Source of the DNA: Maribacter ulvicola
Lineage (GTDB): Bacteria; Bacteroidota; Bacteroidia; Flavobacteriales; Flavobacteriaceae
DNA length: 64,000 nucleotides
Assembly: GCF_900155985.1 (NCBI RefSeq)
Contig: NZ_FTMA01000001.1
Coordinates: forward strand, 1 to 64,000
Direction of reading: 5' to 3'
The translations under genes and the position numbers were made by a program. The first letter of the stretch is position 1. Each line of letters opens with the position of its first letter. Below, one piece after another: positions 15,978-30,511 of this stretch. Under the pieces are notes generated by a model. That model worked only from the letters and a program-made list of their open reading frames with translations. It was not told the DNA's origin and did no database searches.

Positions 15978-16760
15978 ATGAAAGATATTGTAATTCAAGG
16001 AATTAATTGGGATGCCAAATCTTCTTTTCAAAGAGGTCCTGCAAAAGCTCCTGACCTCATCAGAAAAGCATTGTACAGCGACTCTATGAACTTGTATACA
16101 GAACTTGGGGTATCTATAGAAAATGATGCCATTACCGATAAGGGTGATTTTGCCATTAACGAGTATTTTGATATTGAAACTATTACCAAAAAGAATATTG
16201 AATCTGGTTCTAAACTGCTGACACTTGGCGGAGATCACTCGATTACCTTCCCCATTATAAAAGCTTTTAACGAGCACTACCCAAAACTAGACATTTTACA
16301 TATTGATGCCCACGCAGATCTGTACCATGACTATGAAGGCGACCCCTTCTCTCACGCATGCCCTTTTGCACGTATTATGGAAAATGGTTTCGCCGTAAAA
16401 TTGGTTCAAGTTGGGATAAGAACTCTGAATCCGCATCAAGCTGCACAAGCAAAAAAGTATAATGTAGATGTTCACGAAATGCGGAATTTAGATTTAAACG
16501 CTATTCCTAAATTCGAGAATCCGCTTTATATTTCTTTAGATATGGATGGCTTTGACCCCGCCTTTGCCCCGGGAGTATCTCATCACGAGCCTGGCGGACT
16601 CTCATCTAGACAAGTTTTAGACTTAATTCATAGCATAGATACCGAAGTAGTAGGTGCAGACATTGTAGAATATAACCCTGATCGAGACTTTCATGACATG
16701 ACCGCTTACTTGGCCGCAAAAATGATGAAAGAATTTTTAGGAAAATTGATGGGCAATTGA
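15978..16760 (+). CDS. speB: Ureohydrolase family protein, probable agmatinase
   Basis: A 260-residue manganese enzyme of the arginase/agmatinase/formiminoglutamase fold. All metal-binding motifs are present: GGDHS with His87, DAHAD with Asp110, His112 and Asp114, and DMDGFDPAFAPG with Asp188 and Asp190. FAPGVSHHEPGG is typical of agmatinases and arginases. Agmatinase converts agmatine to putrescine plus urea. Arginase is the main alternative, since the sequence does not separate the two cleanly. The protein is shorter than E. coli SpeB (306). It lies 2.4 kb before the arginine biosynthesis cluster, so nitrogen metabolism may be linked. Confidence 0.85.
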   Translation: MKDIVIQGINWDAKSSFQRGPAKAPDLIRKALYSDSMNLYTELGVSIENDAITDKGDFAINEYFDIETITKKNIESGSKLLTLGGDHSITFPIIKAFNEHYPKLDILHIDAHADLYHDYEGDPFSHACPFARIMENGFAVKLVQVGIRTLNPHQAAQAKKYNVDVHEMRNLDLNAIPKFENPLYISLDMDGFDPAFAPGVSHHEPGGLSSRQVLDLIHSIDTEVVGADIVEYNPDRDFHDMTAYLAAKMMKEFLGKLMGN

Positions 16761-16816: not shown

Positions 16817-18160
16817 ATGCCCATTACCTTTAAAAATTTTCTGAAACTCCACAAAGTTTCCTTGACTTTAGCGGTATTAAGTTTTGTGTTTTATTACACC
16901 TTCGCCTATCATTTAGACCGTTCAGATTTTATAAAGTTGCTCTCCCTTTTTGTAGCTCTTTTCTTTTTTTGTTTTAAGCTGATACAATTTGAAAAACTAA
17001 ATTTCAGGTTCTTATTAAGCATCGGTGTTATTTTTAGACTCATTTTTCTATTTACCGAACCTAACCTTTCTCAAGATTTTTATCGTTTTATATGGGACGG
17101 TCATTTGGTCTCTAGCGGTGCCAACCCCTATTTACACACACCCAATCAGTTAATTGAAAACATCGCATCTATAATACCAAATGCCAATATTTTATATGAA
17201 GGCATGGGTAGCTTAAGCGCACGCCATTACAGCAATTACCCACCCCTGAACCAGCTCATTTTTGCCTTAGCAGCACTATTAGGCGGCAAAAGTATCTTTG
17301 GTTCTCTATTTACCATGCGTGCCATTATTATTCTTGCAGACGTTGGCATATTCTATTTTGGCAGAAAGTTGCTGAAAAACCTGAATAGATCTCCGCATTT
17401 AATTTTCTGGTATTTTTTAAATCCGTTAGTTATTGTAGAACTCACGGGCAACCTTCATTTTGAGGGCGTCATGCTGTTTTTCTTCATTCTAGCCCTGTTT
17501 TTACTATCCTTGGATAAATGGAAAACTGCCGGTATTGTTTTAGCATGTTCCATATCTATAAAATTGGTTCCACTTCTATTCTTACCACTGTTCTTTAAAT
17601 ATTTAGGCTGGAAAAAGAGTATAGTATTCTATACCATTATAGGCATAACATCCATTATGCTATTTCTACCGTTCAACACCCCAGAATTTATAGCTAATTA
17701 TAGCAAGACTTTAAAACTATGGTTTTCTAATTTTGAGTTCAATTCTAGTATCTATAACGTCGCTAAAAAAACTGCTATTTATTTTGATGCAAAGCCTTGG
17801 GAGTTCATCAAGGAATATGGTAAAATTACACCAATGCTCACTATTGCAACAGTAGGCCTATTTACATTTTTACCTAAAAAATATGACCTAAACAGAGTGC
17901 TTTGGTCTATTATGTGGGTTTTGACCATCTATTATTTCATATCTACTACCGTGCACCCATGGTATCCCATATTTCTAGTATTACTTTCCATTTTTACTAC
18001 CTATAGATATGCCATTATTTGGTCTGCGGCCATTGTATTAAGCTACTTTGCTTATTCTCAGGCAGATTTCAAAGAAAACCTATGGCTTTTGAGTATTGAG
18101 TATATTTCAGTGTATGGCTATTTGTTTTATGAAATTGTTTCACATAATAACAAAAAGTGA
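16817..18160 (+). CDS. Polytopic membrane protein, GT-C glycosyltransferase-like
   Basis: A 447-residue integral membrane protein with about 11-12 hydrophobic segments. The loop after the second or third segment carries SQDFYRFIWDGHLVSSGANP, and later HYSNYPPLNQLIF. Such acidic first-loop motifs followed by a YPP block are typical of DUF2029/GT87-like GT-C glycosyltransferases that use polyprenyl-phosphate sugars. It would act in the inner membrane, possibly on lipid-linked glycans. It starts 56 bases after the agmatinase gene. Donor and acceptor are unknown. Confidence 0.7.
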   Translation: MPITFKNFLKLHKVSLTLAVLSFVFYYTFAYHLDRSDFIKLLSLFVALFFFCFKLIQFEKLNFRFLLSIGVIFRLIFLFTEPNLSQDFYRFIWDGHLVSSGANPYLHTPNQLIENIASIIPNANILYEGMGSLSARHYSNYPPLNQLIFALAALLGGKSIFGSLFTMRAIIILADVGIFYFGRKLLKNLNRSPHLIFWYFLNPLVIVELTGNLHFEGVMLFFFILALFLLSLDKWKTAGIVLACSISIKLVPLLFLPLFFKYLGWKKSIVFYTIIGITSIMLFLPFNTPEFIANYSKTLKLWFSNFEFNSSIYNVAKKTAIYFDAKPWEFIKEYGKITPMLTIATVGLFTFLPKKYDLNRVLWSIMWVLTIYYFISTTVHPWYPIFLVLLSIFTTYRYAIIWSAAIVLSYFAYSQADFKENLWLLSIEYISVYGYLFYEIVSHNNKK

Positions 18161-18224
18161 AGTTTTTGTAAAAATTATACTATGGGTGATGTCAAATAAA
18201 TATAATTTGTACATTTACCCCATA

Positions 18225-18311
18225 ATGAACGAAAAAAACTACTTTTTATATAGCACCATGAGCCCAGTTGCTCTTGCTCGCCCGTTCACATCTCGCCGTC
18301 GTCGCCCGTAA
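18225..18311 (+). CDS. Arginine-rich leader peptide of the arginine cluster
   Basis: A 28-codon ORF (ATG 18225, TAA 18309-18311) whose product ends ARPFTSRRRRP, so five of the last ten residues are Arg. The Arg codons are CGC, CGC, CGT, CGT, CGC, giving a GC-rich patch in a strongly AT-rich region. It lies 85 bases upstream of the first gene (GNAT) of an eleven-kb arginine/proline cluster. In amino-acid attenuation a ribosome stalls on codons for the pathway's end product when the charged tRNA is scarce. Position, length and codon content fit that role. An in-frame extension upstream to 18096 overlaps the preceding gene and is not needed. Function is inferred from context. Confidence 0.7.
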   Translation: MNEKNYFLYSTMSPVALARPFTSRRRRP

Positions 18312-18396
18312 GGGTAAGATATAATTATGGAATTAGGTGAGTCCATTTCCGCACAGAAAATCAAAACTTTTTTTACACTTTTAAATCTAACTGGCA
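18312..18396 (+). promoter_or_regulatory. Putative attenuator region after the Arg leader
   Basis: Between the leader stop and the GNAT start lie CCCGTAAGGG (18305-18314, a small hairpin straddling the stop), the pair ATGGA/TCCAT around ten bases (within about 18327-18347), and a run of seven T at 18368-18374. GGTGAG near 18337 can pair, with one G-U, to CTCGCC inside the Arg codons. That would let ribosome position alter folding. I cannot define one terminator/antiterminator pair with certainty. Confidence 0.4.
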
Positions 18397-19029
18397 ATGA
18401 ACTTAATTGTTGCTAACGAATCACATTTTAAATACGCTGAGGATATCTGTGATACCATAGCTGAATCTGCCAAAGTACGCGGTACCGGTATTGCAAAACG
18501 TACTCCTGAGTATATTCAAAGAAAACTGTCTAACGGCAATGCAATCCTAGCTTTGGACGGAGATAAATTTGCGGGCTTCTGCTACATTGAGGTTTGGGGA
18601 CATGAAAAATTTGTTGCCAATTCCGGACTCATAGTACACCCAGATTATAGAGGTCAAGGTCTTGCCAAAAGTATTAAGGCAAAGATTTTTGAGCTTAGCA
18701 GAGCGAAGTTTCCAGATGCTAAAATTTTTGGTATCACCACTGGTTTAGCTGTTATGAAAATCAACTACGAACTTGGTTATAAGCCCGTTACATTTTCTGA
18801 ATTAACGGATGACCCAGAATTCTGGAAAGGCTGCCAAACTTGTAAAAACTTCGATGTTCTTACAAGAACGGAGCAAAAAATGTGCTTGTGCACAGGTATG
18901 CTATATGATGGGGCTACCAAGAAAAAAGCTGAAGAGACCAAAAAAATGAACGGTAAGGCATTCACAAGATTAAAAAGTATTAAAGAGAGTTTATTTCTGA
19001 GAAGAAAAGAAGAAAAAAGTAAACCATAG
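18397..19029 (+). CDS. GNAT acyltransferase, likely N-acylglutamate synthase of arginine synthesis
   Basis: A 210-residue GCN5-type acyltransferase. The acyl-CoA-binding motif is SGLIVHPDYRGQGLAKSI (near residue 69-90). Unusually for the fold it also has Cys146-x2-Cys149 and Cys163-x-Cys165, which may hold a metal. It is the first gene after the Arg leader and heads the arg cluster, which has argB, argC, argD, argE, argF', argG and argH but neither a classical argA nor argJ. I infer it acylates glutamate with acetyl- or, given ArgF' Ser89, succinyl-CoA. The alternative is an unrelated GNAT carried in the operon. Confidence 0.7.
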   Translation: MNLIVANESHFKYAEDICDTIAESAKVRGTGIAKRTPEYIQRKLSNGNAILALDGDKFAGFCYIEVWGHEKFVANSGLIVHPDYRGQGLAKSIKAKIFELSRAKFPDAKIFGITTGLAVMKINYELGYKPVTFSELTDDPEFWKGCQTCKNFDVLTRTEQKMCLCTGMLYDGATKKKAEETKKMNGKAFTRLKSIKESLFLRRKEEKSKP

Positions 19030-19139
19030 CAATTAAATATATGGGTTGAATGATGAAAACAACAATCTATTTTCTCTATTCTAGCCCTATCAAACCAAAA
19101 TAATAATTACCCGGCATCACCGGAATTGAACTTATTACA

Positions 19140-20327
19140 ATGAAAAAATTAGTACTAGCATACAGTGGCGGATTAGATACATCTTATTGCGCTAAACATT
19201 TATCAAAAGACAAAGGATTTGAAGTTCATGCTGTAAGTGTAAATACCGGCGGATTTACTTCAGATGAAATAAAGGAAATTGAAAAAAAATCTATAGAACT
19301 AGGTGCAACCTCTTACACTTCTATAGATGCTGTACAGATCTTTTATGATAAAGTGGTCAAATACCTTATTTTCGGTAACGTATTAAAAAACAACACCTAC
19401 CCTCTTTCTGTAAGTGCTGAACGTATTGTACAGGCTATTGAAATTGTAAACTATGCCAAAAAAATAGGTGCTGGTTATATTGCACATGGTAGTACCGGTG
19501 CAGGTAACGATCAAGTTCGTTTTGATATGATTTTCCAGATCATTGCCCCAGAAATAGAAATCGTTACGCCAATTAGAGATAACAAACTAGCTAGAGAAGA
19601 AGAGATCGCATACCTAAAAGAAAACGGTGTAGACTACCCTTGGGAGAAAGCTAAATACTCTATAAACAGAGGACTTTGGGGAACATCGGTTGGTGGTGAA
19701 GAAACCTTAACTTCTGAAAAAGCATTACCTGATACTGCTTACCCAAGCCAATTACAGGAAAAGAACCCAACAGATGTAAAACTTACTTTTGAAAAAGGTG
19801 AACTAATTGCTATTGATGGGGAAAAAGATACTGCCGTCGCGAACATTGAAAAACTAGAAGCATTAGCTTCAAAGTACGCTATTGGTAGAGATATTCATGT
19901 TGGTGATACAATTATAGGTACAAAAGGTAGAGTTGGTTTTGAGGCACCAGCTTCATTAATCATCATAAAAGCACATCATTTGTTAGAAAAGCATACGCTT
20001 ACAAAATGGCAACAATACCAGAAAGAACAACAAGGTAACTTTTACGGAATGTTATTGCATGAGGGTAATTACCTAGATGCCGTAATGAGAAATATAGAAA
20101 CTTTCTTGACCGATACCCAAAAAACCGTTTCTGGAGATGTTTTCGTTGGCTTATATCCTTTTCAGTTTAGATTGCACGGTATTTCATCTAAACACGATTT
20201 AATGACCGATGCCTTTGGTAAATACGGAGAAGTAAATAAAGGATGGACCGCTGATGACGCTAAAGGATTTATTAAGATACTATCAAATTCCGGAAAAATA
20301 TATAACCATGTTAATGGAGATAAATAG
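19140..20327 (+). CDS. argG: Argininosuccinate synthase
   Basis: A 395-residue cytoplasmic ligase that condenses citrulline and aspartate using ATP. The N-terminal PP-loop LAYSGGLDTSYC (residues 5-16) binds ATP. HGSTGAGNDQVRFD and YSINRGLWGTSVGG are typical family blocks. The length matches the family. It follows the GNAT gene by 110 bases and precedes argC by 140 bases in the same direction, so it is probably part of the leader-controlled cluster. Confidence 0.96.
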   Translation: MKKLVLAYSGGLDTSYCAKHLSKDKGFEVHAVSVNTGGFTSDEIKEIEKKSIELGATSYTSIDAVQIFYDKVVKYLIFGNVLKNNTYPLSVSAERIVQAIEIVNYAKKIGAGYIAHGSTGAGNDQVRFDMIFQIIAPEIEIVTPIRDNKLAREEEIAYLKENGVDYPWEKAKYSINRGLWGTSVGGEETLTSEKALPDTAYPSQLQEKNPTDVKLTFEKGELIAIDGEKDTAVANIEKLEALASKYAIGRDIHVGDTIIGTKGRVGFEAPASLIIIKAHHLLEKHTLTKWQQYQKEQQGNFYGMLLHEGNYLDAVMRNIETFLTDTQKTVSGDVFVGLYPFQFRLHGISSKHDLMTDAFGKYGEVNKGWTADDAKGFIKILSNSGKIYNHVNGDK

Positions 20328-20350
20328 ATAATTAGGAGTTAGGAAAAATA

Positions 20351-20441
20351 GTATTAAGTAATGGGTACAAAGTATTAAGTTAAAAGGTTCAAGGCAAGCC
20401 TCTGAGCATTAAAATCTAGATTATTGAGTAAACCAAGTACT
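20351..20441. repeat. Degenerate dispersed repeats in the argG-argC spacer
   Basis: The ten-mer AGTATTAAGT occurs at 20350-20359 and again at 20371-20380. The 20-mer at 20351-20370 is matched at 17 of 20 positions by 21458-21477 in the argC-proC spacer. The block at 20420-20441 (GAGTAAACCAAGTACT) resembles 22370-22392 in the proC-argD spacer. Three successive operon spacers therefore carry related non-coding sequence. Confidence 0.5.
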
Positions 20442-20467
20442 TCGTACTAATTACACAAAAGAAAATT

Positions 20468-21442
20468 ATGATTAAAACAGGTATTATTGGTGGTTCTGGT
20501 TATACGGGCGGGGAGCTTATTCGCATCTTATTGAATCATCCGGCAACGGAAATAGATTTTGTTTTCAGCACCACAAGGGCTGGAAAAAAGGTAACTACTG
20601 CACATCCGGATTTATTAGGGATTACTGACCTAGAATTTACGGGAGATGTCAACCTTAATGTTAATGTTGTTTTTCTATGTTTAGGCCATGGAAACTCCAC
20701 CGCATTTTTAAAGGCTCATGATTTTTCATCCGATACTGTAATCATTGATTTAAGTAATGATTTTAGATTACATGCCGATGCCGATTTTAATGGAAAACAA
20801 TTTGTGTACGGTTTACCAGAATTATTTAAATCTGATATTGAAAACGCAAAATATATAGCTAATCCCGGTTGCTTTGCTACGGCAATTCAATTAGCGTTAT
20901 TACCGTTAGCGAAAGAGAACCTTTTAGAAAATGAAGTTCATATCAATGCCGTAACCGGTAGTACCGGCGCAGGTGTTAGTCCGTCTGCAACTTCTCATTT
21001 TTCATGGAGAAATAATAATGTGAGTTGGTACAAGCCTTTTACCCATCAACATTTGGGAGAAATTAATGAAAGTCTTCATTCTTTCCAAGAAAATACGGGC
21101 AAGCTATTTTTTATGCCCAATAGAGGAAACTTTACGCGTGGAATCCTAGCCACTTCTTACACCAAATTTGATGGTAGTATAGCCGAAGCCAAAAAAACCT
21201 ATGAAGATTTTTATAAGGATGCTGTATTCACCCATATGTCTCAAGAACCTATAAATCTAAAACAAGTGGTCAATACCAATCAGTGTCACATACATTTACA
21301 CAAACATGAAGATATATTGTTGATTACATCTGCCATTGACAATTTATTAAAAGGTGCATCTGGACAAGCGGTACAGAATATGAATTTAATATTCGGGCTA
21401 GAAGAAAATCTAGGCTTGAATTTAAAGGCAGGTGTCTTTTAG
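20468..21442 (+). CDS. argC: N-acyl-gamma-glutamyl-phosphate reductase
   Basis: A 324-residue NADPH-dependent reductase making N-acylglutamate semialdehyde, the third arginine step. The Rossmann motif GIIGGSGYTGGELIRIL starts at residue 4. The active-site Cys is in YIANPGCFATAIQLALLP, and TGSTGAGVSPSATSHF follows. The protein is close to the usual 310-345 residues. It lies between argG and proC. The acyl group, acetyl or succinyl, is not decided by this protein. Confidence 0.96.
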   Translation: MIKTGIIGGSGYTGGELIRILLNHPATEIDFVFSTTRAGKKVTTAHPDLLGITDLEFTGDVNLNVNVVFLCLGHGNSTAFLKAHDFSSDTVIIDLSNDFRLHADADFNGKQFVYGLPELFKSDIENAKYIANPGCFATAIQLALLPLAKENLLENEVHINAVTGSTGAGVSPSATSHFSWRNNNVSWYKPFTHQHLGEINESLHSFQENTGKLFFMPNRGNFTRGILATSYTKFDGSIAEAKKTYEDFYKDAVFTHMSQEPINLKQVVNTNQCHIHLHKHEDILLITSAIDNLLKGASGQAVQNMNLIFGLEENLGLNLKAGVF

Positions 21443-21491
21443 AAAAAAAAGTAAAAAGTACTATGTAATTGGTACAAGAAAAATATAAAAA

Positions 21492-22286
21492 ATGAAAATA
21501 GCGATTATAGGTGCAGGTAATTTAGGACTTTCTATTGCAAACGGAATTCTAAAAAGTAATGGTGCCACTAGCATGTACCTTACCAAAAGAGATACAAAAT
21601 CTATTGCCAATTTTGAAAAATTTGACAAGGTTACGGTTACTGATGATAACCGCTTGGCCGTACAAAATTCAGACATTTTAATTTTTGCAGTGCAACCGGT
21701 TCATTTTGTCGCAATTTTAGAAAGCATAAAAGACCTATTGACCGAAAATCACGTGGTAATATCTACCATAACAGGTTTCAGTATCGAAAAAATGGAAGCG
21801 GTTATTGGTAAGGACAACTACATTGTTAGAAGTATGCCCAATACTGCTATTTCTGTTGGTAAATCTATGACCTGTATCTGTAGTAATGAAAAAGGGAAAA
21901 AACGTATTGACCTAACTAAGGCAATTTTTAATAGAATGGGACATTCTATGGAAATACCCGAAAACCAAATGCAAGCTGCAACTGTTATTTGCGCAAGTGG
22001 CGTAGCGTTTTGGATGCGCTTAATACGGGCTACCACCCAAGGCGCTATACAACTTGGCTTCGATGCCAAAGAGGCACAAGAATTAGCGATGCACACTTGT
22101 AATGGCGCCGCAGGCTTACTTATAGAATCTGGCAACCACCCAGAAGAGGAGATTGATCGTGTTACCACACCTATGGGCTGTACCATTACCGGATTGAACG
22201 AAATGGAACACCAAGGGCTAAGCTCATCATTAATACAAGGTATTATTGCCTCTTACGATAAGATTACCGAATTTAAAACAAAGTAA
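21492..22286 (+). CDS. proC: Pyrroline-5-carboxylate reductase
   Basis: A 264-residue NAD(P)H-dependent enzyme for the last proline step. The N-terminal dinucleotide fold begins KIAIIGAGNLGLSIANGI. The family blocks VVISTITGFSIEKME, RSMPNTAISVGKSMTC and the C-terminal TPMGCTITGLNEME are present, the last corresponding to the P5C-binding TxxGGTT-like motif with variation. Its position inside the arg cluster, with proA and proB downstream, couples proline and arginine synthesis from glutamate. Confidence 0.93.
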   Translation: MKIAIIGAGNLGLSIANGILKSNGATSMYLTKRDTKSIANFEKFDKVTVTDDNRLAVQNSDILIFAVQPVHFVAILESIKDLLTENHVVISTITGFSIEKMEAVIGKDNYIVRSMPNTAISVGKSMTCICSNEKGKKRIDLTKAIFNRMGHSMEIPENQMQAATVICASGVAFWMRLIRATTQGAIQLGFDAKEAQELAMHTCNGAAGLLIESGNHPEEEIDRVTTPMGCTITGLNEMEHQGLSSSLIQGIIASYDKITEFKTK

Positions 22287-22428
22287 ATAACCTTAGAGAA
22301 AGTTCGCGGGGTCTTGAATTGAAAATATAATTATTATTTAGAAGCAACTATCACAGAATTTTAACCTCGATTTTCGAGTAAAACAAGCTACTGAACCCGT
22401 TCACTTTTGAACTTGAACCTATTGAATT

Positions 22429-23553
22429 ATGAAATTATTTGACGTTTACCCACTATATAATGTTACTCCCGTTTCTGCGAAAGGAATTGTTGTAACCGAC
22501 GATAAAGGACAAGATTACTTAGATTTTTACGGTGGGCATGCCGTAATTTCTATTGGTCATACCCACCCACATTATGTACAGCGTTTAAAAGATCAACTGG
22601 ATAAAATAGGATTTTATAGTAATGCGGTACAAAATCCTTTACAAGTAGAACTTGCCGAAAAATTGGGTGCGGCTTCTGGTTGCGAAGATTACAATTTATT
22701 TTTATGTAACTCTGGTGCCGAGGCTAATGAGAATGCACTAAAAATGGCATCTTTTGTTACCGGAAAATCTAAAGTTATTGCCTTTAACAACGGGTTTCAT
22801 GGGCGTACCTCTGCTGCAGTTGCAGCAACGGACAACCCCTCTATAAACGCTGAACTTAACCAGCAACATGAAGTTGTTTTTCTTGACCTCAACGACATCA
22901 AAGGTTTTGAAAGAGAAATTTCAAAAAATGTATGTGCCGTAATTATCGAACCTATACAAGGTGTAGGCGGATTAGATGAACCTACTACCGCATTTATACA
23001 GCAAGTAGCATCGCTATGTAAAGAAAATGATGCGCTTTTAATTGCCGATGAGGTACAATGTGGCTTTGGCAGAAGTGGAAAATTCTTCGGATTTCAACAT
23101 CATAACATTCAACCGGATATTATCAGTATTGCAAAAGGTATGGGTAACGGCTTCCCTGTAGGCGGTGTTCTTATTCAAGAGAACATTAAAGCAAAATACG
23201 GAATGTTGGGTACTACTTTTGGCGGAAATCACTTAGCATGTGTTGCCACCATGGCTGTACTTGAAGTTATAGAAAAAGAAAACCTGATTGCCAATGCGCA
23301 AGAATTAGGAGTTTACTTTAATGAGAGAGCAAAAGAAATTCCGCAAGTAAAACGTGTAAAAGGAAGAGGTTTGATGTTAGGGTTGGAGTTCGATTTTCAA
23401 GTTGCCGATCTACGCAAAAAATTAATTCATGAACACTTCCTTTTTACAGGTGGGGCAAAAGACAAAACCGTTCTTAGAATTTTACCGGCATTAAATATTA
23501 CCAAACAAGATTTAGATGTGTTTTTCACCGCTCTTAAGACTGCTTTATCATGA
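22429..23553 (+). CDS. argD: N-acylornithine aminotransferase
   Basis: A 374-residue PLP-dependent class III aminotransferase converting N-acylglutamate semialdehyde to N-acylornithine. It has LFLCNSGAEANENALKMA, NNGFHGRTSAAVAATD, ALLIADEVQCGFGRSGKFF and the PLP lysine in ISIAKGMGNGFPVGG. The slightly short length is usual for Bacteroidota ArgD. Its last four bases overlap the proA start (ATGA), so the two are translationally coupled. A succinylornithine form is likely if ArgF' uses succinyl substrates. Confidence 0.94.
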   Translation: MKLFDVYPLYNVTPVSAKGIVVTDDKGQDYLDFYGGHAVISIGHTHPHYVQRLKDQLDKIGFYSNAVQNPLQVELAEKLGAASGCEDYNLFLCNSGAEANENALKMASFVTGKSKVIAFNNGFHGRTSAAVAATDNPSINAELNQQHEVVFLDLNDIKGFEREISKNVCAVIIEPIQGVGGLDEPTTAFIQQVASLCKENDALLIADEVQCGFGRSGKFFGFQHHNIQPDIISIAKGMGNGFPVGGVLIQENIKAKYGMLGTTFGGNHLACVATMAVLEVIEKENLIANAQELGVYFNERAKEIPQVKRVKGRGLMLGLEFDFQVADLRKKLIHEHFLFTGGAKDKTVLRILPALNITKQDLDVFFTALKTALS

Positions 23554-24746
23554 AAACAACACTAAGCTTAGCAAAAAGAAATGCCGTATTAAAACGTATG
23601 GCAGAATTGGTTCAACAAGAAGAATCAATGCTAATGTCTGCCAACGAGAAAGATTTAAATTCTTTTGAATCTGGGGACATTGCCATGATCGATCGGTTAA
23701 AAGTGAATAAAGATAAGGTAGCTGAAATGGTATCTTCCTTAAAAAAATTAGCGGCGCTACCAGATCCTTTGCATGTAGAACGTTTTCAATTTACACATGA
23801 TAACGGATTAGAAATCAGTAACAAAACGGCTCCGTTTGGCACAATCATGATTATTTATGAATCTAGGCCAGATGTTACTATTGAAGCTGCCGGAATCGCT
23901 TTTAAATCTGGAAATAAAATATTACTGAAAGGTGGTAAAGAGTCCCTAAACTCCAACTTAGTTCTGGTCAATCTATGGCATAAAGCATTAGAATCTTGTG
24001 ACTGTGCTACAGATTGGGTTAGCTACCTAAACTATTCTAGAACAGAAACACAACAGTTTTTAGAAAATCCCACGCAAAAGCTCGATTTAATAGTTCCTCG
24101 CGGTGGCGAAAAACTAATTGCTTTTGTTAAGCAACATGCTCAGTGCCCTGTAATTGTAAGTGGTCGTGGCAATAACTTTGTCTATGTTTCTCATGAGGCA
24201 GATTTGCAAATGGCTTTAGATGTTATTGTGAACGCAAAGACGACTAAAATATCTGCTTGTAACGCAGTTGATAAAGTAATTATATCTAGAGATTTACCCC
24301 GTAAAGCAGAATTTTTAAGTCACTTGATTCAGACTTTAAAAAAACATAATGTAGAAATCTTAACCGATGCCAAATTAGCCGGTATGGATGGTACTTCTGA
24401 AATGCAAAACGAATCTGTTTGGTATGAAGAATTTCTAGATTATAAAATAGTACTTGGGCAAGTGCCTGATTTGGATGAAGCCATACAGCTAATCAATACC
24501 TACGGTGGCGGACATTCAGCTTCCATCATTACAAAAGACGAGGAAGAGGCAGACATTTTTATGCAGTCAGTAGATACGGCAGCTGTGTACCATAATGCAT
24601 CTACCCGTTTTACCGATGGCGGACAATTTGGTTTAGGCGGTGAACTTGCTATCAGTACCGATAAATTGCACCAACGCGGACCAATTGGCTTACAACACCT
24701 AGTGACCAATAAATGGTATGTAAAAGGGAATGGGCAGGTTAGATAG
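23550..24746 (+). CDS. proA: Glutamate-5-semialdehyde dehydrogenase
   Basis: A 398-residue NADPH-dependent enzyme for the second proline step. Family blocks are PFGTIMIIYESRPDVTIEAA, GNKILLKGGKES, LIVPRGGEKLIAFV and the catalytic Cys in TTKISACNAVDKVI. The C-terminal TRFTDGGQFGLGGELAIS and QRGPIGLQHLVTNK are typical. It is coupled to argD by a four-base overlap, and proB follows 104 bases on. Confidence 0.95.
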   Translation: MKTTLSLAKRNAVLKRMAELVQQEESMLMSANEKDLNSFESGDIAMIDRLKVNKDKVAEMVSSLKKLAALPDPLHVERFQFTHDNGLEISNKTAPFGTIMIIYESRPDVTIEAAGIAFKSGNKILLKGGKESLNSNLVLVNLWHKALESCDCATDWVSYLNYSRTETQQFLENPTQKLDLIVPRGGEKLIAFVKQHAQCPVIVSGRGNNFVYVSHEADLQMALDVIVNAKTTKISACNAVDKVIISRDLPRKAEFLSHLIQTLKKHNVEILTDAKLAGMDGTSEMQNESVWYEEFLDYKIVLGQVPDLDEAIQLINTYGGGHSASIITKDEEEADIFMQSVDTAAVYHNASTRFTDGGQFGLGGELAISTDKLHQRGPIGLQHLVTNKWYVKGNGQVR

Positions 24747-24850
24747 GTAATTGGTTGTTCGTTTTTCGTAAAATAAATAATAATAGTGTCGGGTTGTGCG
24801 CAATCAAAACTTAAAAAAGGGCTAATAGTTAAGACTAAAAGCAAACAAGC

Positions 24851-25618
24851 ATGTTGAAAAAGAGAATTTTATTGAAATTAGGTTCCAATACCTTAACTAA
24901 AGACACTGACCATATTTCTCGTGGTAAAATAGAGGATATTGGCAGGCAAATAGCTGCTTTAAAAGATCAATATGAATTTATCATTGTGAGTTCTGGGGCT
25001 ATTGCTGCTGCTAAACAATTTGTAAAAATTGAACATAACGGAGAGGAAATCAATGTAAAACAGGCATTGGCATCTATTGGCCAGCCACATCTAATGCGTA
25101 TTTTTCAAGAGAATTTTAGAGAACTAGGGCTTTTTACATCGCAGTGTTTGTTATCCTATTCCGATTTTGAAAATGAACAGACCAGAGTGAATATTAAAAA
25201 TACGATAAATGTTCTCGTTGCCAATAACTTCATCCCTATCATCAACGAAAACGACACCGTAGCCACTGATGAAATTAAATTTGGAGATAACGATAAACTA
25301 GCAGGTTTAACGGCATCGCTTTTATCAGCAGACATCTTAATTATTGCCACCAATACGGACGGAATTTATACAAAAATGTCATTAGCCACTTCTTCTCCTA
25401 AAACCATAGTATCGGCATCGGATTTAAGTGAATTACTAAAAGAAATTGGTGCATCTACATCTACCCATGGCACTGGCGGTATGCAATCTAAAATAGACGC
25501 AGCCACCATTGCTCAAAAAGCAGGTATTGAAACTTGGATTACCAATGGTTTAAAAGATCACTTTATTACTGACGCCCTTGAAAATAAAAGCACATTTACA
25601 AAAATTAAAGCATCATGA
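24851..25618 (+). CDS. proB: Glutamate 5-kinase, short form without PUA domain
   Basis: A 255-residue amino-acid kinase catalysing the first proline step. It has LLKLGSNTLT at the N-terminus, IVSSGAIAAAK, PIINENDTVATDEIKFGDND and GTGGMQSKIDAATIAQKAG. The C-terminal PUA domain found in E. coli ProB (367 residues) is absent, as in many short forms, and the frame ends cleanly. Its last four bases overlap the argF' start. Feedback control by proline may differ from the long form. Confidence 0.93.
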   Translation: MLKKRILLKLGSNTLTKDTDHISRGKIEDIGRQIAALKDQYEFIIVSSGAIAAAKQFVKIEHNGEEINVKQALASIGQPHLMRIFQENFRELGLFTSQCLLSYSDFENEQTRVNIKNTINVLVANNFIPIINENDTVATDEIKFGDNDKLAGLTASLLSADILIIATNTDGIYTKMSLATSSPKTIVSASDLSELLKEIGASTSTHGTGGMQSKIDAATIAQKAGIETWITNGLKDHFITDALENKSTFTKIKAS

Positions 25619-26553
25619 ATTATCTTTCTATAAATGATATCGACTCTTTATCTACCTGGGTAAAGGAAGCTATATCGCTTAAAAAACAACCTAAAAAACA
25701 CAAAGCTCTTGGTAGCGATAAAACTATTGGGCTCCTATTTTTTAACAACTCGCTTCGTACACGTTTAAGCACCCAAAAAGCGGCTATGAACTTAGGCATG
25801 GAAGTCATTGTTATGAATTTTGGTAGTGAAGGCTGGGCTTTAGAATATGCCGATGGTACCATTATGGACCAAGGTACTTCTGAGCATGTTAAAGAAGCAG
25901 CACAAGTAATTTCTCAATATTGTGATATTATTGCCATTCGTGCTTTTGCAGGTTTAAAAAACAAGGCATTAGATGAAGCCGAAGAAGTCTTGAGCGGGTT
26001 TAAGACATACGCATCTGTGCCTATCGTTAACATGGAAAGTTCCGTAGGGCACCCGTTACAAGCACTTACAGATGCCATAACTTTAGAGGAACATAATTTT
26101 AAAAACAACCCAAAAGTGGTTTTATCATGGGCTCCACACCCAAAAGCTTTGCCACATGCGGTTGCTAATTCTTTCATACAAATGATGCAAAAGCAAAACG
26201 CTGAATTTGTGATAACTCATCCCAAAGGATATGAGCTAGACCCAAACATCACAAAAGACTGCACTATTGAGCACGATCAAGAAAAAGCTTTAGAAAATGC
26301 AGACTTTGTGTACGTAAAAAACTGGAGTAGTTATACTGATTATGGTCAAATAAAATCTCAAGATTCTAATTGGCAAATGACCCTTGAAAAATTAGGGAAT
26401 GCTAAATTTATGCACTGCTTACCAGTTCGTAGAAATGTAGTAGTGGCTGATGAAGTTTTAGATAGCGAACAATCATTGGTCATTGAACAGGCGAACAACA
26501 GAACCTTTGCCGCACAATTGGTGTTGAAAAAAATTCTGGATAATTTAAAATAG
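25615..26553 (+). CDS. argF': N-acylornithine carbamoyltransferase, probably succinyl-specific
   Basis: A 312-residue transcarbamylase converting N-acylornithine to N-acylcitrulline. The carbamoyl-phosphate site SLRTR is at residues 46-50, the C-terminal signature is HCLPVRRNVVVADEV, and GTIMDQGTSEH spans residues 81-91. In the N-acetylornithine enzyme of Xanthomonas the specificity residue is Glu92 (TEEH), and in the Bacteroides succinyl enzyme it is Pro90 (KPEH). Here Ser89 (TSEH) occupies that place. Published substitutions at Glu92, including Ser, shift the enzyme towards succinylornithine. I made the alignment from memory. Start overlaps proB by four bases. Confidence 0.9.
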   Translation: MNYLSINDIDSLSTWVKEAISLKKQPKKHKALGSDKTIGLLFFNNSLRTRLSTQKAAMNLGMEVIVMNFGSEGWALEYADGTIMDQGTSEHVKEAAQVISQYCDIIAIRAFAGLKNKALDEAEEVLSGFKTYASVPIVNMESSVGHPLQALTDAITLEEHNFKNNPKVVLSWAPHPKALPHAVANSFIQMMQKQNAEFVITHPKGYELDPNITKDCTIEHDQEKALENADFVYVKNWSSYTDYGQIKSQDSNWQMTLEKLGNAKFMHCLPVRRNVVVADEVLDSEQSLVIEQANNRTFAAQLVLKKILDNLK

Positions 26554-26559
26554 ATAGAA

Positions 26560-27312
26560 GTGCAAAAACTTGAGAATAAAGTAGCCATAATTACAGGTGC
26601 AACAAGTGGTATGGGCAAAGCCATTGCCATTAATTTTGTAGCCAATGGCGCAAAGGTTATTCTCTCTGGTCGTGATACCACCAGAGGTAACGCGTTAGTT
26701 ACGGAACTAGGTGATAATAGTATATTTATAGCCGGTGACATAAGAAGTGCCTCGTATAATGAACTACTAGTGCGCAAAGCAATTGAGCACTTTGACAAGC
26801 TAGATATTCTTTCCCTAAATGCCGGTATACTAGGTATTGGCAGTATTACTGATTTACCAGAAGATTTATGGAAAAGTACATTGGACACAAATTTGTCCTC
26901 TATTTTCTATTTATCTAAATATGCGATACCCGAGCTTCAGAAAAATGAAGATGCCTCTATATTAATCAATGCTTCGATTGCCGCTTATAAAAGTTTTCCA
27001 AATCATCCGGCATATTGTGCATCCAAGGCAGGTTCGTTAGCCTTAATGCGACAAATGGCAGTAGAATATGCTCCTGAAATTAGAGTCAATGCCATTTGCC
27101 CAGGACCAGTGGACACTCCCTTGCTTTGGAATTCTGCAAAAGCATTTAACAACCCAGAAAAAGCTGTAGAAGAGGCTGGAGAAAAAACACTATTAAAAAG
27201 ATTAGGAACTCCTAAAGACATTGCTAGCCTAGCTCTGTTTTTAGTATCGGAAGATGCTTCATGGATTACCGGAACCGCAATGACCATTGATGGTGGTATA
27301 TTAAATGTTTAA
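26560..27312 (+). CDS. SDR family oxidoreductase inside the arginine operon
   Basis: A 250-residue classical short-chain dehydrogenase with a GTG start (26560), six bases after argF'. The cofactor motif TGATSGMGKA is near residue 14, NAG lies in LSLNAGILG, the catalytic Ser is in INASIAAY, and the Tyr-Lys pair is in HPAYCASKAG. The C-terminal GTAMTIDGGI is usual. It probably reduces or oxidises a carbonyl/alcohol with NAD(P)(H). No known arginine or proline step needs an SDR, yet it is wedged between argF' and argB, so the role is unclear. The substrate is not predictable. Confidence 0.88.
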   Translation: MQKLENKVAIITGATSGMGKAIAINFVANGAKVILSGRDTTRGNALVTELGDNSIFIAGDIRSASYNELLVRKAIEHFDKLDILSLNAGILGIGSITDLPEDLWKSTLDTNLSSIFYLSKYAIPELQKNEDASILINASIAAYKSFPNHPAYCASKAGSLALMRQMAVEYAPEIRVNAICPGPVDTPLLWNSAKAFNNPEKAVEEAGEKTLLKRLGTPKDIASLALFLVSEDASWITGTAMTIDGGILNV

Positions 27313-27313
27313 T

Positions 27314-28093
27314 ATGAAAGAAAAATTATCCATTATAAAAATTGGCGGCAATGTCATTGAAGATACAAATGCTTTAGATACATTCCTTACCGCTTTTTCC
27401 AAAATTGAAGGCTTAAAAATATTAGTACATGGTGGTGGTAAACTAGCAACACAATTAGCTACCAAACTTGGTATTGAATCTAAAATGATAGATGGCAGAC
27501 GTATTACCGATGCCGAAACAGTAGATATCATTACCATGGTGTATGGCGGATTGGCAAACAAGAAAATTGTTGCACAACTTCAAGCTAAAAATATAAATGC
27601 CATTGGATTAAGCGGTGCAGATGGCAATAGTATACAGGCACATAAACGCCCTGTAAAAGAAATTGATTACGGATTTGTTGGTGATATTGATAGTATAAAT
27701 TCAGAATTGCTAACAACGCTTCTGTCTACCAATTTAACACCTATATTCTGTGCCTTATCTCACGATGGCGCTGGGCAATTATTAAATACCAATGCAGACA
27801 CTATTGCCTCTGAAATTGCCATTGGCATGGCATCTACCTATGAAACCACTTTGTATTATTGCTTTGAAAAAAAAGGGGTTTTAATGGATATCGCTGACAA
27901 CAATAATGTAGTTAAGCACATCAACACTAATACATATAAAACACTTTTATCTGACGGAATAATTGCTGACGGAATGCTACCAAAACTTCATAATTGCTTT
28001 CATGCATTGAACAATAGTGTTGCAAAAGTATGCTTGGGCGATGTTACCATGCTCGATAAAAAAACAGAACTGTTCACTACAATACAACTTTAA
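27314..28093 (+). CDS. argB: N-acylglutamate kinase
   Basis: A 259-residue amino-acid kinase catalysing the second arginine step. The start at 27314 (MKEKLSIIKIGGNVI) immediately follows the SDR stop. An ATG three codons earlier (27305) would overlap the SDR by eight bases and is less likely. Motifs include KIGGNVIED, ILVHGGGKLATQLA, GRRITDAETVDI and IGLSGADGN. The length is as expected for ArgB. It is usually the arginine-feedback point, but no feedback residues were judged here. Confidence 0.94.
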   Translation: MKEKLSIIKIGGNVIEDTNALDTFLTAFSKIEGLKILVHGGGKLATQLATKLGIESKMIDGRRITDAETVDIITMVYGGLANKKIVAQLQAKNINAIGLSGADGNSIQAHKRPVKEIDYGFVGDIDSINSELLTTLLSTNLTPIFCALSHDGAGQLLNTNADTIASEIAIGMASTYETTLYYCFEKKGVLMDIADNNNVVKHINTNTYKTLLSDGIIADGMLPKLHNCFHALNNSVAKVCLGDVTMLDKKTELFTTIQL

Positions 28094-28094
28094 G

Positions 28095-29168
28095 ATGACC
28101 CAAACAGAACTTACAAAAAGTGCCATAGCCTTATTAAAAGAACTCATTTCAATAGAGTCCTTTTCTAAAGAAGAAGATAAAACCGCTGATGCCATACAAG
28201 CCTGGCTGGCAAAATATAACATACCGACCAAAAGGGACGGTAATAATGTTATCGCGAAGAATAAATTTTGGGACGATGCTAAACCTACCTTATTATTAAA
28301 CTCGCACCACGATACGGTAAAACCAAATTCTGCATATACCAAAGACCCTTTTCATCCACACGTGGAAGATGGTAAATTATTTGGATTAGGAAGTAATGAT
28401 GCTGGTGGACCATTGGTATCACTGCTTGCTACCTTTGTTCACTATTATAATGCTGAAGATAATAATCATAATATTTTAATGGTGGCATCAGCTGAAGAAG
28501 AAAATGCCGGTGAAAATAGTTTACGCGGATTATTACCAAGACTTCCGCATATAGATGTTGCCATTGTAGGCGAGCCCACACTTATGTTGCTCGCTATTGC
28601 AGAAAAAGGATTGGTTGTTTTTGATGCGGTTGTTAAAGGTACTCCCTCTCACGCTGCACACCCTAATGATAATAATTCCATTTATAATACTATTCAGGTT
28701 TTAGAATGGTTCAAGAATTATACCTTTGAAAAAACTTCTGACGCATTAGGCGATGTCAAAATGACCGTTACTCAAATTAGTGCAGGAACGCAACACAATG
28801 TAGTACCGGCACAAGTAGATTTGGTAGTAGATGTTCGTGTTAATGACTGCTATAGTAATAAAGAAATTGCAGATTTACTGAAGAAGGATGCGCCATGCGA
28901 ATTAAAGGAACGATCTTTACGTTTAAATTCATCGAAAATAGATAAAGACCATCCGTTGGTAAAATCCGGTATTGCCTTGGGCAGAACCACATATGGCTCT
29001 CCTACACTATCAGATCAAGCGGCATTAAGCTGCCAATCATTGAAATTAGGACCAGGAGACAGCACACGCTCCCACTCCGCCAACGAGTTTATCTATGTTC
29101 ATGAAATTGAAGAAGGCATAGATTTGTATATTAAACTATTAAAAGGCTTCCTTTCAATTAACAATTAA
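28095..29168 (+). CDS. argE: M20 family deacylase, N-acylcitrulline/ornithine deacylase
   Basis: A 357-residue zinc hydrolase started at the ATG at 28095, one base after the argB stop. An upstream in-frame ATG at 28017 lies inside argB and is rejected. M20 motifs are LLNSHHDTVKPN (His-x-Asp zinc ligands), GLGSNDAGGPLVSLLA, VASAEEENAG (catalytic and ligand Glu) and PGDSTRSHSANEFI near the C-terminus. In an ArgF' pathway this enzyme removes the acyl group from N-acylcitrulline. Its last codons, SINN, lie within an AT-rich repeat. Confidence 0.88.
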   Translation: MTQTELTKSAIALLKELISIESFSKEEDKTADAIQAWLAKYNIPTKRDGNNVIAKNKFWDDAKPTLLLNSHHDTVKPNSAYTKDPFHPHVEDGKLFGLGSNDAGGPLVSLLATFVHYYNAEDNNHNILMVASAEEENAGENSLRGLLPRLPHIDVAIVGEPTLMLLAIAEKGLVVFDAVVKGTPSHAAHPNDNNSIYNTIQVLEWFKNYTFEKTSDALGDVKMTVTQISAGTQHNVVPAQVDLVVDVRVNDCYSNKEIADLLKKDAPCELKERSLRLNSSKIDKDHPLVKSGIALGRTTYGSPTLSDQAALSCQSLKLGPGDSTRSHSANEFIYVHEIEEGIDLYIKLLKGFLSINN

Positions 29169-29220
29169 CAATAACCAATTACCAATAAGCATTGTTCATT
29201 ACTTAATTGATAATTGATAA
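29155..29220. repeat. AT-rich heptamer-like repeats in the argE-argH spacer
   Basis: Degenerate tandem units of the type CAATTAA/CCAATTA fill 29155-29187. Inverted counterparts (TTGATAA units) fill about 29204-29220, so the stretch could fold into a weak hairpin. The first units encode the last residues of argE. Such low-complexity spacers recur in flavobacterial genomes. Confidence 0.5.
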
Positions 29221-29230
29221 CTGACAACAT

Positions 29231-30511
29231 ATGAAACTCTGGGATAAAGGATTTAGCACTGATAAAAAAATTGACCATTTCACGGTTGGTAATGATAGGG
29301 AATTGGATCTGCATTTGGCAAAATATGATGTAATAGCATCTAAAGCACATGCCAAAATGCTAGGTGAAATTGGTTTAATAACTCCTAAAGAAACCAAAGA
29401 ACTGGTTAATGAGTTGAACAATATTGGGGCGCGTATAGAAAAAGGAACTTTTTCTATCGAAAATTCTTTTGAAGACATGCATTCTAAAATTGAATACATG
29501 CTGACCTTAAGCTTAGGTGATACGGGTAAAAAAATACATACGGCACGTTCAAGAAACGACCAAGTTCTTGTAGCAATGCATTTATATTTAAAGGATGAAT
29601 TGACCGAGATCAAGTCCATGACAAAATCACTTTTCAACCTCTTAATTCTTAAAGCACAGGAGCATAAAGATGTATTACTACCAGGTTATACGCATTTACA
29701 AATTGCCATGCCATCTTCATTTGGGTTATGGTTTTCCGCCTATGCCGAGAGTTTAATAGATGACTTATACTTTATAGAAGCTGCATATAAAGTTGCAGAT
29801 CAAAACCCTTTAGGAAGTGCAGCAGGTTATGGAAGTTCATTTGCAATTGACCGTAGATTTACAACGAAAGAAATGGGCTTTAGTACACTAAAATACAATG
29901 TGGTCGCCGCACAAATGAGTAGAGGAAAAGCAGAAAAAGCAACTGCCTTTGGTATTGCTAATATTGCCGCTACCCTTTCTAAAATGGCCATGGATATCTG
30001 CCTGTACATGAGTCAGAATTTTGATTTTATCTCATTCCCAGATGAGTTGACCACAGGTTCTAGCATTATGCCACATAAGAAAAACCCTGATGTGTTTGAG
30101 TTGGTTCGTGGTAAGTGCAACAAGCTACAGTCTATTCCTAATCAATTGACTTTAGTGATCAATAATTTGCCAAGTGGATATCACCGAGATTTACAATTAG
30201 TGAAAGAAATTATTGTACCTGCAATTCAGGATATGAAAGCTTGTTTAGAGATTTTAACTTTTAGCCTAAAAGAAATTAAGGTCAACAAAAACATTCTAGA
30301 TGATCCAAAGTATGATTATCTATTCAGTGTAGACACCTTAAATGAATTGGTACAAAATGGAATGCCTTTTAGAGATGCCTATAAAAAAATGGGTATGGAA
30401 ATTAACGAAGGTACGTTTACACCAAAAAGAGATATTCACCACTCTCATGAAGGTAGCTTAGGTAATTTATGTTTGAAGGAAATTAACGATAAGATGAAAA
30501 AGCTTAACTAA
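29231..30511 (+). CDS. argH: Argininosuccinate lyase
   Basis: A 426-residue lyase of the fumarase/aspartase superfamily that splits argininosuccinate into arginine and fumarate, the last step. It has KIHTARSRNDQVLVAMHLYL, LPGYTHLQIAMPSSFGLW and the signature loop GSSIMPHKKNPDVFELVRG with the catalytic Ser. It is shorter than the usual 455-465 residues, which is common in this phylum. It ends the cluster; its 3' end overlaps the convergent YihY gene by eight bases. Confidence 0.95.
   Translation: MKLWDKGFSTDKKIDHFTVGNDRELDLHLAKYDVIASKAHAKMLGEIGLITPKETKELVNELNNIGARIEKGTFSIENSFEDMHSKIEYMLTLSLGDTGKKIHTARSRNDQVLVAMHLYLKDELTEIKSMTKSLFNLLILKAQEHKDVLLPGYTHLQIAMPSSFGLWFSAYAESLIDDLYFIEAAYKVADQNPLGSAAGYGSSFAIDRRFTTKEMGFSTLKYNVVAAQMSRGKAEKATAFGIANIAATLSKMAMDICLYMSQNFDFISFPDELTTGSSIMPHKKNPDVFELVRGKCNKLQSIPNQLTLVINNLPSGYHRDLQLVKEIIVPAIQDMKACLEILTFSLKEIKVNKNILDDPKYDYLFSVDTLNELVQNGMPFRDAYKKMGMEINEGTFTPKRDIHHSHEGSLGNLCLKEINDKMKKLN

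Follow-up and report, generated by a model that had tools for sequence, protein, structure and literature searches.

How is arginine synthesis regulated in bacteria that lack ArgR? ArgR, acting with ARG boxes, provides arginine feedback on arg genes, and to our knowledge the regulation of the pathway in Bacteroidota without this protein is an open question. It is posed in concrete form by a locus of Maribacter ulvicola (Flavobacteriaceae), where a short open reading frame (ORF) with a terminal run of Arg codons precedes a cluster of arginine and proline biosynthesis genes. ArgR (PF01316) is absent from the genome of this organism, and a search of 199 genomes of the family returned one match, borderline at the cut-off and in a 312-aa frame; the control for this search gave matches in 9 of 14 genomes, a Bacteroides included. 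The window referred to below is the whole stretch of DNA analysed (64,000 nt; contig NZ_FTMA01000001.1, positions 1 to 64,000), and its relevant features are the following.

18201..18212, forward strand: promoter -7-like element TATAATTTGTAC, a TTGTAC-type box found upstream of the ATG in relatives
18225..18311, forward strand: leader peptide ORF (uORF2 type), MNEKNYFLYSTMSPVALARPFTSRRRRP and stop; ATG at 18225, TAA at 18309-18311, 28 codons
18294..18308, forward strand: Arg-Arg-Arg-Arg-Pro run CGC CGT CGT CGC CCG, the proposed stall site, with a CGY bias across 80 leaders
18304..18315, forward strand: hairpin I, GCCC-GUAA-GGGU (RNAalifold); its loop contains the UAA stop, and its 5' arm consists of the last Arg codon plus the Pro codon
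18329..18350, forward strand: hairpin II, GGAAUUAGGUGAGUCCAUUUCC (RNAalifold), with loop UGAGU, a bulged A and two G-C pairs closing the loop
18368..18374, forward strand: seven-T run in an A-rich then T-rich, G-poor spacer, with no abutting hairpin in the window
18397..19029, forward strand: GNAT acetyltransferase gene, the first of the cluster (Pfam PF00583, PF13508)
19140..30511, forward strand: argG, argC, proC, argD, proA, proB, argF', SDR, argB, argE-like and argH, assigned by family matches and gene order (SDR and argE-like by eye)

The arginine and proline cluster

Ten of the genes were named from family matches together with gene order, and the SDR and the argE-like peptidase by eye from their translations; argF' encodes an acetylornithine-type carbamoyltransferase (NCBIfam PRK04523, just below the cut-off). 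A preliminary description of the locus had given the cluster a length of 11 kb. The arg/pro cluster does lie downstream of the ORF, but it extends over about 12 kb (18397-30511). The position of its first gene suggests that the GNAT protein might be the acylglutamate synthase of the pathway. This protein (18397-19029) carries a C-terminal Cys cluster, CQTC...CLC, and has a weak NCBIfam match alone. Two genes upstream of GNAT, on the same strand, an agmatinase-family enzyme is encoded at 15978-16760 (TIGR01230, above the cut-off).

A conserved arginine leader peptide

The ORF itself is as first described: it has 28 codons, ends in ARPFTSRRRRP and is separated by 85 nt from the GNAT ATG at 18397, and its five Arg codons (CGC at 18279, CGC at 18294, CGT at 18297, CGT at 18300 and CGC at 18303) are without exception CGC or CGT. 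The GC-rich island that had been claimed here is likewise real, as the 15-mer CGCCGTCGTCGCCCG has 87% G+C in a window of 35% G+C, and 15-mers this rich in G+C number 3 among the 63,986 of the window. The sequence CGYCGYCGYCGYCC occurs a single time in the 4.5-Mb genome; its reversed control is also single, so that the motif alone is no proof and the proof has to come from conservation.

Conservation was followed in 80 named loci, the best among 518 with a gene for a GNAT relative, a set biased to close relatives in which the homologues closest to that of the window belong to Maribacter. A leader ORF with its Arg codons is conserved upstream of the GNAT gene in all 80 of them. Thus the codons on which the preliminary description had built its case are kept across related genomes, and the upstream regions to which it had pointed do, in other Flavobacteriaceae, contain short ORFs with C-terminal Arg runs before GNAT-argG. 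A simple rule recovers an upstream ORF with an Arg run in 79 of these best 80 loci, and in the 80th, L110, alignment reveals the leader with one Arg substituted. An in-frame ATG-started ORF of 22-34 codons is present in 80 of the 80. The composition of the peptide is equally distinctive: Arg accounts for 15.9% of the residues in the 80 leaders versus 2.4% of the codons in 18 window genes, and the Arg codons are CGY in 325 of 341 cases versus 46 of 127 in those genes. On comparative sequence grounds, the 28-codon ORF that precedes the arg/pro cluster is confirmed as a conserved arginine leader peptide.

Proline is enriched as well, at 11.6% of residues in the 80 leaders versus 2.9% of codons in the 18 window genes, and the operon also makes proline, which together raise the idea of a joint arginine/proline sensor. 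Among 112 loci of at least 9 kb, argG, argC and argD lie downstream of the element in every case and proC in 96, but proA and proB could be found in 38 and 40, respectively (within the 8.5 kb fetched). Moreover, L182, L196 and L198 have lost the Pro that follows the Arg run but retain Arg, and we regard joint sensing as unlikely.

The same residues bear on a second alternative, in which the nascent peptide itself would bind arginine or a relative in the exit tunnel and arrest the ribosome at the Pro-stop. Ligand-dependent arrest at a Pro-stop is familiar from SpeFL, TnaC and the fungal arginine attenuator peptide, and in the leaders discussed here RRP directly precedes the stop in 79 of the 80 named loci (best 80 of 518). 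Against an arrest sensor, the peptide outside the Arg run drifts strongly among relatives, the Pro-stop is missing in the three loci just named, and the ORF continues beyond Arg-Pro in L158, L162, L163, L253 and L273; both of the latter readings come from a peptide listing that omits about seven loci (L218-L225). An arrest peptide thus seems improbable. Some constraint does act on the N-terminal part: with the last six codons removed, pN/pS is 0.43, 0.76 and 0.42 in the 26-, 27- and 28-codon classes, set against 0.74, 0.67 and 0.78 in the +1-frame control, so that predicted coding constraint is seen in the 26- and 28-codon classes and is absent from the 27-codon class.

The Arg-rich end holds in a broader collection of 173 loci (81 close and 92 diverse, from 201 searched), chosen by a pattern for hairpin II that fixes its loop as UGNGU. 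In these pattern-chosen loci, ORFs ending near the hairpins have at least two Arg in the last 12 residues in 173 of 173 cases, compared with 62 of 173 after shuffling, and at least three in 167, compared with 15 (one shuffle per locus). The start codon of the leader could be located in 171 of the 173 and is ATG in 117, TTG in 29 and GTG in 25.

A promoter-like box upstream of the leader

Of 81 sequences, 80 have a TTGTAC-type box 11-14 nt 5' of the leader ATG. For L043, the one that does not, the script had chosen an ATG further upstream, and the box is visible in the alignment. The box of the window, TATAATTTGTAC, is similar to the flavobacterial promoter motif TAnnTTTG that is given in the available part of a study of Flavobacterium psychrophilum (PMC9723704), and contains one base more. 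A promoter downstream of the ORF, which the preliminary description had named as incompatible with its reading, finds no candidate, as neither a TAnnTTTG nor a TAnnnTTTG box was found between 18311 and 18397. The promoter-like box upstream of the ORF suggests that transcription would start just 5' of the leader.

Tandem leaders in relatives

Many relatives carry a second Arg-rich reading frame, uORF1 (ATG-started, 15-30 codons), in tandem with the first. It is present in 41 of the 92 diverse loci versus 1 of 92 shuffled (one shuffle each), and in 1 of the 81 loci of the Maribacter-like set (1 shuffled). The lineage of the window accordingly has one predicted leader, and many relatives have two. 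The 41 loci fall among L192-L276, with uORF1 located some 110-230 nt 5' of the apex of hairpin II and MKNLKNKIRCTIPGLPVRSRRRF as a typical peptide. The first 45 nt of uORF1 show complementarity to the 70 nt that follow its stop, with a z of -1.75 (n=39), and RNAalifold found no structure over the tandem uORF1 regions. In one locus, L203, uORF1 is retained, ending in PVRFRRRL, and the uORF2/hairpin element is undetected.

The search for an intrinsic terminator

The preliminary description had read the seven-T run behind the leader as part of classical attenuation. The run is indeed present at 18368-18374, and intrinsic termination at this site, in the manner of trp and his leaders, would have precedents in the same genome. 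Its hisG leader, MKNRTTHHHFHIHAQAR, whose ATG lies inside a longer TTG-started frame, is followed by a strong hairpin and T-tract (-16.6 kcal/mol) and is by prediction a textbook attenuator; its ilvD leader, MNLSKLNNELVIVIPNRG, likewise precedes a strong hairpin and T-tract (-18.8 kcal/mol). At L304, MKNRTTHHHFHIHAQAR and a 12-pair AAACCCGTTTGA/TCAAACGGGTTT terminator hairpin occupy the region about 155-40 nt upstream of hisG, and at L305 the Val/Ile leader MNLSKLNNELVIVIPNRG and a strong terminator hairpin lie about 325-200 nt upstream of ilvD.

The arginine leader does not follow suit. No hairpin abuts the T-run, and a scan for folds combined with T-tracts found no such terminator in the arginine leader of the window. 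A separate terminator scan also returned none in the window; it missed the clear hisG terminator and listed a different hairpin near ilvD, and for both reasons it was passed over in favour of the fold-plus-T-tract scan. Some combination of hairpin and T-tract occurs in 36 of 173 leaders (window included), which could be taken in favour of termination, but these hairpins are weak and reach -8 kcal/mol or below in 2 alone. In 3 of the 81 close and 13 of the 92 diverse loci, at least four T lie within 12 nt of the stem of hairpin II. The T-run is not conserved as such; what recurs among relatives is a patch rich in T, some 14-28 nt upstream of the GNAT AUG, within a spacer that, across the 173 loci, runs from hairpin II to the AUG in the order C-rich, A-rich, T-rich, A-rich with very little G. 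We therefore consider it quite unlikely that the leader works by classical attenuation, with the seven-T run belonging to an intrinsic terminator. A tract rich in C would fit a Rho site, but silent positions near the Arg run show no C enrichment that would speak for selection, so that the C-richness near the run may be a mere product of Arg and Pro codons.

A two-hairpin RNA element

Two alignment blocks are conserved beyond what the peptide explains, namely CGYCGCCCGTAAGGGT, which spans the stop codon, and a block like GGAAWTAGGTGAGTCCAWTTCC further downstream. RNAalifold folds the alignment of relatives into the two hairpins listed above, and covariation supports them, so that the conserved RNA folding that the preliminary description had held worth computing does exist. 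Folded on its own, the window leader does no better than its shuffles (z 0.06); the structure is based on comparison, not on energy. In alignment A3, of 95 rows, 98.8% of the cells are paired and 8 of the 12 pairs have changed on both sides. The double-change cells number 102, compared with a shuffled mean of 24.9, and the covariation score is 0.334, compared with 0.140 after shuffling and at most 0.092 with the strands slid; A3 was fitted to the structure of the model, which biases it toward that structure, a bias that the slid-strand control addresses.

In hairpin II, double changes are seen at each of the six pairs of the lower stem and at one apical pair, with compensated pairings such as GGAGUU/AACUCC, GAGGC/GCCUC with a GA/UC apex, and GAAAAC/GUUUUC. 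The window itself has one U-U mismatch in the lower stem, as do 9 of the 62 rows of alignment A2, window included. Above this variable stem the apex is close to invariant: among 95 model-aligned sequences, the loop is UG[A/U/C]GU (UGAGU, UGUGU or UGCGU) in 91, the apical pairs are GG/CC in 90 and the bulged A is present in 88, the loop counts being taken from the model alignment since the pattern behind the 173 loci presets UGNGU. Hairpin I is paired in 100% of its A3 cells and varies little, with 1 of its 4 pairs altered on both sides. The exceptions are L182 and L198, where it reads GCAC/GUGC and the peptides end in RRTFVRA and RRTSVRV, so that Pro and the position of the stop are altered and Arg is unaltered.

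A constant loop, a conserved bulge and a leader whose last codons double as a hairpin arm are also what a translation-independent RNA would present, be it a riboswitch or a protein-binding pair of hairpins, with the Arg codons as a by-product of hairpin I. Yet hairpin I of the window extends to the last Arg codon alone, and the run upstream of it is conserved as Arg. The uORF1 peptides, which are outside the hairpins, are Arg-rich too, and the in-frame ORF stays open in 80 of 80 named loci. An RNA acting independently of translation is, in our view, very unlikely. Rfam 15, with its T-box, riboswitch and Flavo-1 models, gave no match at gathering level in the window, and at E up to 5 it yielded two sub-threshold matches, to miRNA and snoRNA models, in 18150-18450. 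The covariance model of the element could serve as the seed of a new Rfam family.

Several partners for the hairpins were considered and given up or weakened. AGGUGA of hairpin II, as a Shine-Dalgarno-like sequence that binds the anti-SD, is weakened by the replacement of GG/CC with GA/UC in L159, L224 and L263, and so is a CGCC/GGUG antistructure, since these loci keep the hairpin and their Arg run has not changed to match the GA/UC apex. Complements of UGAGU, UGUGU and UGCGU were unenriched and offered no kissing partner for the hairpin II loop. Pairing between the mRNA start and the hairpin linker (CCATAAT/ATTATGG) is lost in relatives, judged from the alignment by eye.

Distribution of the element

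GNAT relatives at E up to 1e-40 are encoded in 130 of the 199 family genomes (nearly one per genus), of which 15 were already in the locus set; the loci fetched were 115 from the family plus 5 from elsewhere in the order. With the covariance models R1 and R2, the element is found upstream of GNAT-argG in 108 of the 115 Flavobacteriaceae loci. Of the first 98 loci (L170-L267), R1 detects it in 94, in every case at E of 0.002 or below, on the gene strand and 39-238 nt (median 47) upstream of the GNAT start; R2, which was built from these matches, adds, at E up to 0.01, L204 and 13 of the 17 loci left. The seven family loci in which the two models miss it are L203, L264, L267, L280, L281, L284 and L283, the last with a sub-threshold E of 0.14 at the expected position.

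The five loci from other families of the order gave no match at E 0.01, and two of them, L286 and L289, score 0.09 and 0.07 at the expected position, where Arg-rich ORFs are located. Inspected by eye, L283, L286 and L289 have Arg-rich leaders upstream of GNAT before different hairpins, with the loops UCCGU in L283 and UACGU in L286. Such leaders with other hairpins in distant loci hint that the arrangement could have a deeper origin. Whole-genome searches gave matches in 25 of 296 genomes of the order (21 in the family, 4 weak ones outside) and in 24 of 395 genomes of the phylum (16 in the family, 8 outside at E up to 0.01); the matches outside the family look like chance, those of the phylum set resembling, by eye, coding sequence or a CRISPR-like repeat. 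One genus of the family, labelled g22, is absent from the matches in both the order and the phylum sets, and phage records gave no match to the element.

No second copy was found in the M. ulvicola genome, where the best other model match has an E of 0.35. The motif TAGGTGAGTCC, with at most one mismatch, occurs at 30 sites in this genome versus 13 for its reversed control, and a CGY-CGY pair within 60 nt before such sites was seen at 0 of 28 others (the 29 non-locus sites minus L113).

Proposed mechanism

Our preferred reading, which we consider probable, is an arginine-sensing leader-peptide attenuator with an output other than an intrinsic terminator. Transcription would begin just before the leader ORF, and a ribosome would translate the peptide. 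With Arg-tRNA scarce, the ribosome would stall on the CGY run, the last codons of which form the 5' arm of hairpin I. Given the known size of its footprint, a ribosome with any of the run's codons in the A site would cover hairpin I; stalling in arginine shortage would consequently prevent hairpin I from forming, and the arg genes would stay on. With arginine plentiful, the ribosome would finish at the UAA in the loop of hairpin I and depart, hairpins I and II could then form together, and expression would drop through Rho-dependent termination, mRNA decay or reduced translation. Both stalling as the signal and the sign of the response are what we infer from this arrangement. The preliminary description was thus right about the sensor and wrong about the effector, there being no terminator at the T-run.

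Searches for a mutually exclusive antistructure found none, apart from a weak complementarity between the Arg run and hairpin II (z = -0.66, 133 loci) that is broken where the apex is GA/UC; for the leader ORF as a whole versus hairpin II, z = 0.03 (133 loci). A hairpin loop that stays near-constant across about a hundred genera points to a binding partner, and we infer that the loop of hairpin II is a docking site. A wider reading can be entertained tentatively, as a possibility rather than an expectation: a family-wide arginine switch that replaces ArgR, in which one or two tandem leaders gate the two-hairpin RNA, a trans factor (an RNA-binding protein, Rho or a nuclease) reads the UG[A/U/C]GU loop, and the whole arginine operon is controlled without an intrinsic terminator. 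A leader switch devoid of a terminator could reveal a new factor.

Comparison with known systems

The closest parallel is orf34/SpeFL, the leader of Salmonella speF, in which, according to the part of PMC6386406 available, arginine is sensed by ribosome pausing at consecutive Arg codons and the output combines Rho termination with an RNA structure cut by RNase G, no intrinsic terminator having been found. As far as that part of the source goes, the two leaders have in common a short ORF with consecutive Arg codons and no intrinsic terminator, and the use of Arg codons, Rho and RNase G by orf34 establishes that a terminator-free output is possible. They differ in that orf34 belongs to polyamine synthesis and encodes a conserved DUF2618 peptide with two Arg codons, at positions 12-13 (PMC6386406), whereas the run of the Flavobacteriaceae leader is terminal, its peptide is otherwise variable, its target is arginine biosynthesis and its RNA is a different one. 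The speF core HIRRT, as given there, is absent by eye from the leader peptides of the 80 named loci, which are followed by GNAT-argG and not by speF.

Within the Bacteroidota, the available section of PMC9723704 proposes that leader peptides ahead of amino-acid operons bring about attenuation in F. psychrophilum, and says of its pheA and hisG elements that other genera have them too; these structured 5' leaders come from the same family and likewise concern amino acids, and no arginine leader is named in that section. Leader-peptide-like sORFs are mentioned for Bacteroides in the portion of PMC7366714 available. The accessible text of PMC6847099, which states that the phylum naturally lacks Shine-Dalgarno sequences, makes no mention of arginine, attenuation, or upstream or short ORFs. 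The preliminary description's remark that an arginine leader had not been described in Bacteroidota therefore stands in part: no paper among the matches listed, in which subscription journals are sparsely covered, reports an arginine leader peptide before arg genes in this phylum, but attenuation by amino-acid leaders had already been proposed for F. psychrophilum (PMC9723704, in the section available).

Compared with attenuators of the trp/his type, the arginine leader has the run of end-product codons (a predicted ORF, 80 of 80 named loci) and the place between a putative promoter and the cognate operon (box in 80 of 81; argG/argC/argD in 112 of 112), and no intrinsic terminator was found after the ORF. 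With the his and ilv attenuators it shares a run of codons for the end product before a biosynthetic gene; the his and ilv leaders of its own genome have strong terminator hairpins, whereas the arginine leader has none. With the ArgR system it would share feedback by arginine, in a genome where ArgR was not found and a family where it is borderline in 1 of 199. The element is a likely arginine sensor with defined boundaries and a covarying RNA partner: the family-wide arginine leader and its new covarying RNA are genuine, and an attenuator-like switch without an intrinsic terminator is most likely what they constitute.
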